IMG/VR virus record: IMGVR_UViG_3300037247_000580
Coordinates: 1 to 23,405 of that record
DNA: 23,405 nt
Source: a virus
Direction: 5' to 3' (one strand)
Shown here: piece by piece, positions 8,075 to 9,526 of the stretch
Layout of the letters: each line of letters opens with the position of its first letter
Position numbering within the stretch: position 1 is the first letter of the stretch
Notes under the pieces: model-generated
Database searches by the model: none
What the model was told of the DNA's origin: nothing
Seen by the model: only the letters and a program-made list of their open reading frames with translations
Program-made: the position numbers and the translations under genes

Positions 8075-8414
8075 CGAAATTTTCACGCTCATTCGAGGGA
8101 TGGTTCGCAAGGGCGACCCGTTCACTTGCATCCTCGCCGCCACGACCATCGAGAAAAAGGCGTCGGAATTACACGCCGCGATCACGCTGGAGATCAGGCG
8201 TCGCGGCCCGATGACTGACGGCGAACTGGAGGACTTGAGTCGGTTCAGCCGATACGCTTATTCGAGCGTCCGGAAACGCCGGACCGAATTGTTTCAGGGC
8301 GGCCTCCTGATCTCAGTCGGGAGCCGGAAAAACAAGCGCGGGAACACGATGCTCGTCTGGGATTTAATCGGCCGCGTCGAACCCGAGGACCCGCGCCAGG
8401 GCGATTTGTTTTGA
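8067..8414 (+). CDS. Winged-helix DNA-binding phage protein
   Basis: A 115-residue protein. I place the start at the ATG at 8067, overlapping the upstream stop, rather than the frame start at 7800, which lies wholly over the upstream gene. The C-terminal 70 residues match a winged-helix pattern known from many phages: ITLEIRRRGPMTDGELEDLS, then YSSVRKRRTELFQGGLLISV, then a Gly-rich wing and VWDLI. Such proteins often sit beside methyltransferase or replication genes. The methyltransferase that follows starts with TTG within its stop (TTGA). The role is unknown; regulation of the adjoining genes is a plausible inference. Confidence 0.65.
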   Translation: MDNEIFTLIRGMVRKGDPFTCILAATTIEKKASELHAAITLEIRRRGPMTDGELEDLSRFSRYAYSSVRKRRTELFQGGLLISVGSRKNKRGNTMLVWDLIGRVEPEDPRQGDLF

Positions 8415-9526
8415 CGAAACTGACCGTCCTCGACACGTTCGCGGGGATCGGCGGTTTTTCGCTGGGCCTTGAGTGGACCGGCTTTTTCGAGACGGTCGCG
8501 TTTTGCGAAATCGAGGATTATCCTCAGAAAGTTCTCCGGCGACACTGGCCCGAGGTTCCAATTTATGACGACATCCGAACGCTCACCGCCGAGCGACTCA
8601 GAACAGACGGACTTTTGGAACGAGGGATCGACGTCATCACGGGCGGCTTTCCGTGTTCAGACCTTTCGCTCGCGGGACGGCGCGCTGGCATCGACGGCGA
8701 AAAGTCGGGTCTCTGGGGCGAGCTTTCGCGATGTATTGGCGACATTCGCCCCGCTTACGCGGTCATGGAGAACGTCTCAGCTCTCCTTTCTGGAGACCGA
8801 GGGCGATGGTTTGGCCGAGTTCTTGGAGACATGGCCGCGATCGGGTATATCGTCGAATGGTATTGTCTCCCGGCTGCCCGACTTGGCGCGCCGCACAGAC
8901 GCGATCGAGTCTGGCTATTGGCCTACCCCGAGCGCGCTGGAGAGTCTCCCGACGGACGAACTGATCGACGAGATCAAGGACTCGACGGACGCGACTCACG
9001 AGCGACTGTATCTCCCCGGCCGGAAATATCATTCTCAGCGGACCCTGGCCCGAGTCGTTCACGCTTGGCCGACGCCGAAGTCCAGCCCGTCGGGTCCGGA
9101 TTACGCCCGGACGAATCGACCGGAGAGCGGCGGCGACGATCTCGCGACGGCGGTCGCCCGCTGGCCGACGCCGATGGCGTCCGACGCGGAGGGATCGGGG
9201 AGCCGGAACACGCCGAACTCGAAAGCTCATCCGGGGATCAGCCTCACGGACGCGGTCCGGGGCGACGGCGGGATCGGGAGAACCCCGACACCGTCGGCGA
9301 ACGACTGGAAAGGTTCATCGAAAAGTGGACAGCGACGCGGCCAGTTGACCGACCCGGCGATGGGAGTTATCGAGCCGGGTGGACAGTTGAACCCGACGTG
9401 GGTCGAGTGGCTCATGGGGTTCCCGCTCGGGTGGACCGACTTAAATGTCTCGGAAACGCGATCGTCCCTCAGACCGCCCTCCTGATCGGATACGCCATCG
9501 CGGAGCGTGAGGGACTGATCCCATGA
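8411..9526 (+). CDS. DNA (cytosine-5-)-methyltransferase, Dcm-like
   Basis: A 371-residue C5-cytosine methyltransferase that transfers a methyl group from S-adenosylmethionine to cytosine. Motif I is DTFAGIGGFS (residues 8-17), the acidic AdoMet contact is EIE (33-35), motif IV is GGFPCSDLSL with catalytic Cys82, motif VI is ENV (120-122), motif VIII is HRRDRVW (162-168) and the C-terminal motif is LGNAIVPQ (347-354). The stretch between (about 175-335), where the target-recognition domain belongs, is unusually Arg/Gly/Asp-rich. It contains repeated LADA motifs (RLADAEV, PLADADG), a trait I associate with this phage subfamily. The start is a TTG overlapping the upstream stop. Nearly the whole gene overlaps a second plausible frame (8565-9485). 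No restriction enzyme is seen, so it is probably a solitary phage methylase protecting or marking phage DNA. Confidence 0.9.
   Translation: MTKLTVLDTFAGIGGFSLGLEWTGFFETVAFCEIEDYPQKVLRRHWPEVPIYDDIRTLTAERLRTDGLLERGIDVITGGFPCSDLSLAGRRAGIDGEKSGLWGELSRCIGDIRPAYAVMENVSALLSGDRGRWFGRVLGDMAAIGYIVEWYCLPAARLGAPHRRDRVWLLAYPERAGESPDGRTDRRDQGLDGRDSRATVSPRPEISFSADPGPSRSRLADAEVQPVGSGLRPDESTGERRRRSRDGGRPLADADGVRRGGIGEPEHAELESSSGDQPHGRGPGRRRDRENPDTVGERLERFIEKWTATRPVDRPGDGSYRAGWTVEPDVGRVAHGVPARVDRLKCLGNAIVPQTALLIGYAIAEREGLIP
8552..8555 (+). promoter_or_regulatory. Ribosome site for the overlapping WPTP frame
   Basis: GAGG lies 9 bases before the ATG at 8565. It is inside the methyltransferase gene and supports internal translation initiation of the second frame. 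The match is short, so this is supportive rather than decisive. Confidence 0.35.
8565..9485 (+). CDS. WPTP-repeat protein encoded in an alternate frame inside the methyltransferase gene
   Basis: A 306-residue frame, +1 relative to the methyltransferase. The ATG at 8565 is preferred over a TTG at 8469 because of the GAGG site. It has a Ser/Thr-rich N-terminus, a segment SWRTSQLSF...AEFLETWPRSG (residues 67-94), three WPTP motifs (119, 168, 200) and a TPTP copy (240). It ends in the signature LNPTWVEWLMGFPLGWTDL (275-293). From memory, this architecture matches a widespread phage protein of unknown function, often annotated vaguely near methylases. The WPTP codons are the LADA codons of the other frame, and the C-terminal signature overlaps the methylase EPDVGRVAHGVPARVDRL segment. 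It is either a real dual-coding gene or an unusually family-like shadow; its function is unknown. Codon-level selection tests would decide. Confidence 0.55.
   Translation: MTTSERSPPSDSEQTDFWNEGSTSSRAAFRVQTFRSRDGALASTAKSRVSGASFRDVLATFAPLTRSWRTSQLSFLETEGDGLAEFLETWPRSGISSNGIVSRLPDLARRTDAIESGYWPTPSALESLPTDELIDEIKDSTDATHERLYLPGRKYHSQRTLARVVHAWPTPKSSPSGPDYARTNRPESGGDDLATAVARWPTPMASDAEGSGSRNTPNSKAHPGISLTDAVRGDGGIGRTPTPSANDWKGSSKSGQRRGQLTDPAMGVIEPGGQLNPTWVEWLMGFPLGWTDLNVSETRSSLRPPS

Follow-up and report, generated by a model that had tools for sequence, protein, structure and literature searches.

A C5-cytosine DNA methyltransferase gene in a tailed-phage genome contains, in its +1 frame, a second open reading frame of 306 residues with WPTP repeats, and the locus raises the question of whether this frame is a gene and, if so, what its product has to do with the methylase. 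The window analysed, all 23,405 nt of IMG/VR record IMGVR_UViG_3300037247_000580, comes from the genome of a tailed phage (terminase, portal, head proteins, endolysin and RecE-like exonuclease are encoded) and matches IMG/VR contig 3300043256_000112. The methylase frame, designated alpha, begins at a TTG that overlaps the TGA of the upstream ORF (8412-8414), while the +1 frame has no stop between 8424 and 9485 and contains an ATG at 8565, from which beta is read (Table 1).

Table 1. Positions in the window of the two overlapping genes and of the features within them
Feature	Position	Strand	Details and basis
alpha, C5-cytosine DNA methyltransferase large-domain subunit	8411..9526	+	371 aa, TTG start; PF00145, phrog_363
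alpha residues 5-174, motifs I-VIII	8423..8932	+	Pfam match, AF2, Foldseek
alpha residues 175-343, Arg/Gly/Asp-rich linker between VIII and X	8933..9439	+	composition, pLDDT, variability phase
alpha motif X (KCLGNAIVPQ)	9443..9472	+	alpha-type phase; conservation
beta, nested +1-frame subunit, proposed small domain	8565..9485	+	306 aa, phrog_1008 family, shuffle test
Shine-Dalgarno-like GAGG	8552..8555	+	9 nt upstream of beta ATG
beta residues 54-110, conserved N-terminal segment over alpha motifs	8724..8894	+	consensus, shuffle score
WPTP repeat 1, beta residue 119	8919..8930	+	
WPTP repeat 2, beta residue 168	9066..9077	+	
WPTP repeat 3, beta residue 200	9162..9173	+	
TPTP, degenerate repeat 4, beta residue 240	9282..9293	+	
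motif-IX-like segment LNPTWVEWLMGFPLGWTDL, beta residues 275-293	9387..9443	+	invariant residues, third-position divergence

Alpha matches PF00145 over residues 5-174 (E=6e-40) and phrog_363 (E=2e-72). The catalytic GGFPC (8642-8656) and ENV are invariant or nearly so in 72 relatives, as are, without exception, G348 and N349 of motif X (LGNAIVPQ). The sequence-only reading had seen C5 motifs from the start of alpha to its end; this holds for motifs I-VIII and for motif X, but no motif IX is recognisable in alpha, and the stretch separating VIII from X has low complexity (R 18%, G 14%, D 11% over residues 175-343), being the out-of-phase reading of the recognition region of beta. The target-recognition region (TRD) and motif IX that PF00145 members have in the same chain are thus not in alpha and are supplied in the +1 frame.

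For beta, the positions given in the same reading were all correct. The ATG behind GAGG opens 306 residues free of stops, and the WPTP and TPTP motifs, AEFLETWPRSG (residue 84) and LNPTWVEWLMGFPLGWTDL are exactly where it had placed them; the correspondences it drew between motifs of the two frames (WPTP with LADA, AEFLETWPRSG with FGRVLGDMAAIGY, the LNPTW segment with EPDVGRVAHGVPARVDRL) each come from one stretch of nucleotides translated in both frames. Beta proteins have from one to five WPTP repeats each. Residues L275, P277, V280, E281, L283, M284, G285 and T291 are invariant in the region of LNPTWVEWLMGFPLGWTDL, which ends where motif X of alpha begins in the other frame. The consensus of residues 54-110 is LAxYDPxTxSWRTSQ...FSETWPRSGMMRNGxxYQLPPL, and this segment is also found upstream of split beta genes (see below).

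Selection on the two frames

The conservation of beta was compared with that expected by chance by shuffling synonymous codons of alpha, with the alpha protein kept, and scoring the +1 frame with a beta profile from which the window was left out. Beta itself scores 290.4 bits against 88.1 +/- 12.5 (maximum 134.8) in 1000 shuffles. Over the TRD and motif IX region the scores are 139.9 bits and 4.1 +/- 5.9, respectively, and over the part of beta that lies on motifs I-VIII they are 115.6 bits and 77.9 +/- 8.2, so that conservation of the +1 frame over motifs I-VIII is partly, but not wholly, forced by alpha, and almost none is forced downstream. An open +1 frame occurred in 0.8% of 500 codon shuffles of the window and in 0.0% of those of its duplicate record (L007).

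Stops were counted in 64 different complete genes picked by the large domain of alpha only, a sample that avoids selection on the feature being tested. The +1 frames of these loci have 52 stops, where 287 are expected from synonymous shuffles, and the +2 frames, used as control, have 683 against 677 expected and therefore no deficit; 37 of the 64 lack any +1 stop (0.5 expected). In three of the alpha-selected loci (L148, L153 and L155) the methylase frame itself encodes an ordinary recognition region with motif IX and stops close the +1 frame, which makes these loci a natural control. An xxMGFPxxW-like segment is present in the +1 frame of every relative inspected by reading frames, in degenerate form in two.

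Substitutions were then counted at each codon position of alpha in an alignment made from alpha only. Before the start of beta the pattern is ordinary, with the third position of alpha the most variable (about 0.6 of comparisons differ). This pattern weakens over alpha residues 110-157 and is reversed over residues 173-343, where the most variable position is the first of alpha, which is the third of beta; the third-position divergence of alpha falls to 0.04 at alpha residues 326-337, under LNPTWVEWLMGFP. At motif X (alpha residues 350-361) the ordinary pattern is back, with divergences of 0.15, 0.04 and 0.57 at positions 1, 2 and 3. In 16 pairs that share no locus, although L072 and L073, which sit in two of these pairs, have the same alpha and beta proteins, the third-position minus first-position difference is +0.24 to +0.38 before beta and -0.27 to -0.06 over residues 173-318. 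The bootstrap intervals exclude zero at residues 2-51, 173-318 and 350-361, and at 326-337 the interval just touches zero. As the variability phase reverses over the recognition region and returns at motif X, beta is the selected reading in the recognition region and alpha the passenger there, and the return of the ordinary pattern indicates that translation of alpha continues as far as motif X. Both frames are thus shown to be under selection, the recognition and motif IX region in the frame of beta and motif X in that of alpha.

These results bear out the earlier proposals that the gene is dual-coding, with its second frame under selection, and that the recognition region of alpha is shaped by that frame. 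They also make it very hard to believe that beta is untranslated and the open +1 frame a by-product of the amino acids and codons used by alpha. Alpha does impose some of the +1 conservation, as WPRSGMxRNG is the +1 reading of LAxIGYDAEW and shuffled genes retain 88 bits, but a by-product would not account for a stop deficit confined to +1, the switch of variability phase, the 140 bits of the TRD and motif IX region where shuffles give 4 +/- 6, or the beta genes annotated in phages with the split arrangement. Over 8930-9440, the original coding sense was probably that of beta, and the Arg/Gly/Asp-rich linker of alpha is the overprinted passenger there.

Relation of beta to single-chain and split methylases

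Beta matches phrog_1008, a family labelled DNA methyltransferase, over profile positions 59-286 of 329 (E=5e-27), as do all 76 of the 76 aligned nested homologues of beta. Homologues occur in three connected arrangements: a single chain in one frame, two adjacent genes, and the nested form of the window. In the single chain of Mycobacterium phage prophi104-2 (gp17; P0003, locus L093), motifs I-VIII, LPTP repeats, RLAAPFSEWMQGWPLGW and LRIIGNGVVPQ follow one another in one frame; its N-terminal part matches phrog_363 and alpha, and residues 209-412 match phrog_1008 at 9.5e-63. About 30 other single-chain homologues were found. The adjacent-gene arrangement is that of L001, L004 and L006. Mycobacteriophage Twister and Streptomyces phage Lilbooboo (gp32/gp33), like mycobacteriophage Alma (gp83/gp82), have two consecutive methylase genes, of which the first stops after motif VIII and the next, in the +1 frame, has LPTP, a motif-IX-like segment and motif X. 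Alma gp82 matches phrog_1008 at 3e-68. In profile comparisons with hhalign, split beta matches nested beta at 2.5e-28, and the single chains match nested beta at 3e-13 and alpha at 1.5e-65. In Alma, the +1 frame extends upstream of the annotated start of gp82 (L001:2070-2214) with the conserved N-terminal segment of beta, and the true start of gp82 may lie upstream of the annotated one.

Known structures of C5 methylases have the variable region together with motif IX in the small domain, and most of the other motifs in the large one (PMC3404938). The WPTP/LPTP segment of the single-chain and split homologues sits between motifs VIII and X, where C5 methylases carry these recognition and motif IX parts, and this position together with the homology identifies the WPTP segment as the likely recognition domain of the methylase, with its motif IX. 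We propose, from these sequence relationships, that beta is the small domain of the methylase, its target-recognition region plus motif IX, moved into the +1 frame. The last segment of beta aligns in register with an ordinary motif IX (PTWVEWLMGFPLGW with PRERMRLQGFPEDW), the profile match not being significant alone. Searches of the PDB with beta alone and with the beta profile gave no matches, and a search with the single-chain profile aligned the large domain alone.

The structure predictions (AF2, from input alignments without two rows from annotated records) agree with this assignment. Motifs I-VIII and X of alpha are modelled with confidence (pLDDT mostly above 85 at residues 5-174), and pLDDT falls below 50 at 189-289 and 319-335, the region between VIII and X being predicted as disordered. 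Foldseek aligns the alpha model with M.HhaI over about 175 columns (E=1.7e-14), in the large domain only. The model of alpha thus folds as a large domain only, with the small-domain region disordered, as would be the case if beta were the recognition domain and motif IX. Beta itself was modelled poorly (pLDDT 58.9) and a fold search with the model found no match, so that its assignment as a small domain rests on sequence homology and position.

The sequence-only reading had regarded the WPTP proteins as a family of separate function, born by overprinting of a methylase gene. Such an independent gene, whose product might for example regulate the methylase or counter restriction, would be nested in the methylase gene and co-occur with it, as is observed, and the N-terminal part of beta (about residues 1-110), which lies over motifs of alpha, does look overprinted in the usual sense, although it is the only part that does. 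In the single-chain and split relatives, however, this sequence lies within the enzyme itself, between its motifs VIII and X, with the two frames combined in a single protein or in neighbouring genes, and alpha has neither a motif IX nor an ordered small domain of its own. WPTP-type sequences are also not always in the +1 frame of a methylase gene, as single-chain forms exist. An independent gene is therefore improbable, and the alternative offered in the same reading, that beta is a partner of the methylase, is the one favoured by its homology with the VIII-X segment of single-chain relatives.

A second frame within a phage methylase gene has a documented precedent in the ShiLan element, an HNH endonuclease encoded out of frame (PMC11855218). 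Both are ORFs hidden in another frame of a phage methylase gene, but the ShiLan ORF is an inserted homing endonuclease and beta appears to be part of the methylase. An HNH endonuclease of this kind was rejected for the window, as beta has no Pfam endonuclease match.

A proposed two-polypeptide enzyme: assembly and precedents

With a probability of about 0.86, we consider the locus to encode a two-polypeptide C5-cytosine DNA methyltransferase whose chains, made from a nested pair of genes, assemble into one site-specific and probably protective enzyme. Two proteins would be translated from one mRNA, alpha from the TTG at 8411 and beta from the internal ATG at 8565. Alpha would provide the catalytic large domain (motifs I-VIII, a disordered linker and motif X), and beta the small domain, with its conserved N-terminal segment, the putative WPTP-repeat target-recognition modules and motif IX. 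The loose linker of alpha would bypass the small domain, with beta docking in its place, and the assembled enzyme would methylate cytosine at a specific site, most plausibly in protection of the phage from host restriction. We infer the separate translation of beta, its assembly in trans, its recognition of DNA and the protective role. In origin, one frameshift between motif VIII and the recognition region would have given the split form, and a second, between motifs IX and X, the nested form.

An ATG at the beta start site of the window or at the next codon is present in 71 of 137 relatives, and the start point of beta may vary among them. At the Tyr codon of alpha that creates this ATG, TAT is preferred over TAC (41:23, compared with 175:226 elsewhere; Fisher p=0.003), and this excess supports a start at 8565. 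Alternatively, ribosomes translating alpha might shift to the +1 frame after motif VIII and so make one chain of motifs I-VIII, TRD and IX, with no separate start for beta. The single-chain relatives do indicate that the fused order of domains is workable, and about half of the loci have no ATG at the start position of the window. Programmed frameshifting is nevertheless unlikely: motif X is under selection in the frame of alpha past the end of beta, indicating that full-length alpha is made and used; beta is conserved beyond the shuffle expectation well upstream of the VIII/TRD junction, where a shift at that junction would need no conservation; and the beta genes of the split relatives have start codons of their own in the annotation.

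For two separate chains, the closest precedent is M.EcoHK31I, with which the phage pair is compared here by description rather than as an established member of its family. Reportedly (Lee et al., 1995), its small subunit is encoded within the gene of the large subunit, in a different frame, and in vitro activity requires the two together. The assembly of alpha and beta into one enzyme, as reported for M.EcoHK31I, is the most likely outcome. M.EcoHK31I (YGGCCR) is a two-polypeptide C5 methyltransferase whose large subunit carries motifs I-VIII and X and whose small subunit carries IX (PMC3404938), and in both systems motif IX is out of the large subunit and in the small one, as judged for the phage pair by position and single-chain homology. 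A small subunit encoded in a different frame within the large one, here a +1 ORF under selection, would likewise be shared. In contrast, the predicted TRD of M.EcoHK31I is in its large subunit (PMC3404938), whereas here it is selected in the frame of beta, and M.EcoHK31I is a member of a restriction-modification system, whereas the phage gene has no adjacent restriction enzyme identified. M.AquI (CYCGRG) is also a two-polypeptide C5 methyltransferase, its natural break point lying between variable region and C-terminal motifs (PMC3404938). The split form of the mycobacteriophages resembles it, but the small subunit of M.AquI has both IX and X, whereas in the nested form X stays in alpha. The paired 'DNA methylase' genes of mycobacteriophages (Alma gp83/gp82, Twister gp79/gp78) have homologous subunits in the same relative frame (+1); they differ from the window in an annotated overlap of only about 50 nt and in having motif X in the second gene. 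If homology with M.EcoHK31I were true, a 30-year-old oddity would become one example of a large class.

As a part of a methylase, beta would explain the identity of phrog_1008, and the locus would be a clean natural example of a domain that switched frames without leaving its enzyme, in a family that allows single-chain, split and nested forms to be compared. It is conceivable, though rather doubtful, that WPTP and LPTP segments are interchangeable recognition modules chosen by reading frame, with indels switching methylation specificity and alpha and beta as alternative carriers; the loci that prompt this reading are L180, L187 and L200, and the pair L192 and L212, described below.

Distribution, annotation and putative recognition modules

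In a profile census, the nested form was found in 80 of 80 viral loci selected with beta, in 69 of 80 selected with alpha and in 73 of 80 genome loci. Selection with the single-chain protein gave mostly single-chain or split loci. The genome loci are from Pseudomonadota, Bacillota, Actinomycetota, Planctomycetota, Verrucomicrobiota, Thermodesulfobacteriota, one archaeal bin and others, and the nested form is widespread in phages and prophages of many phyla. On a tree of the large domain the arrangement classes form strong clusters, with several changes among them, so that the frames have moved more than once; the tree does not polarise nested versus single-chain. L148, L153 and L155, which are close relatives of alpha, fall inside the nested group on this tree, a placement that suggests replacement of their recognition domain.

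Only alpha is annotated in the RefSeq records of E. coli prophages L320 and L322, though the +1 frame carries a WPTP/LNP protein, and this is also the case in the plasmid records inspected, from a plasmid gene table that is incomplete by design. An exception is ORF30 of Escherichia phage K1G ('Mte8-like'; L091:1180-1872), an annotated nested beta; the origin of the name 'Mte8' was not traced in the literature searched, in which no description of nested subunits in phage methylases was found. Many phage and prophage genes annotated as 'DNA cytosine methyltransferase' thus appear to hide a second subunit left out by annotation, and an enzyme expressed from the annotated gene only would probably lack activity or specificity.

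In a Paenibacillus polymyxa plasmid gene (L088:1110-2600), the +1 frame contains two copies of the motif-IX-like segment (LNPTWVECLMGFPLDW and LNPAWVECLMGFPLGW), suggestive of a duplication. The single-chain methylases of four actinobacterial prophage loci (L180, L181, L187 and L200) have LPTP modules in the methylase frame and more in the +1 frame. Prophage loci L192 and L212 share about 97% DNA identity and have identical large domains, with the putative recognition modules that adjoin motifs IX and X read in different frames, as a single chain in one and in split form in the other.
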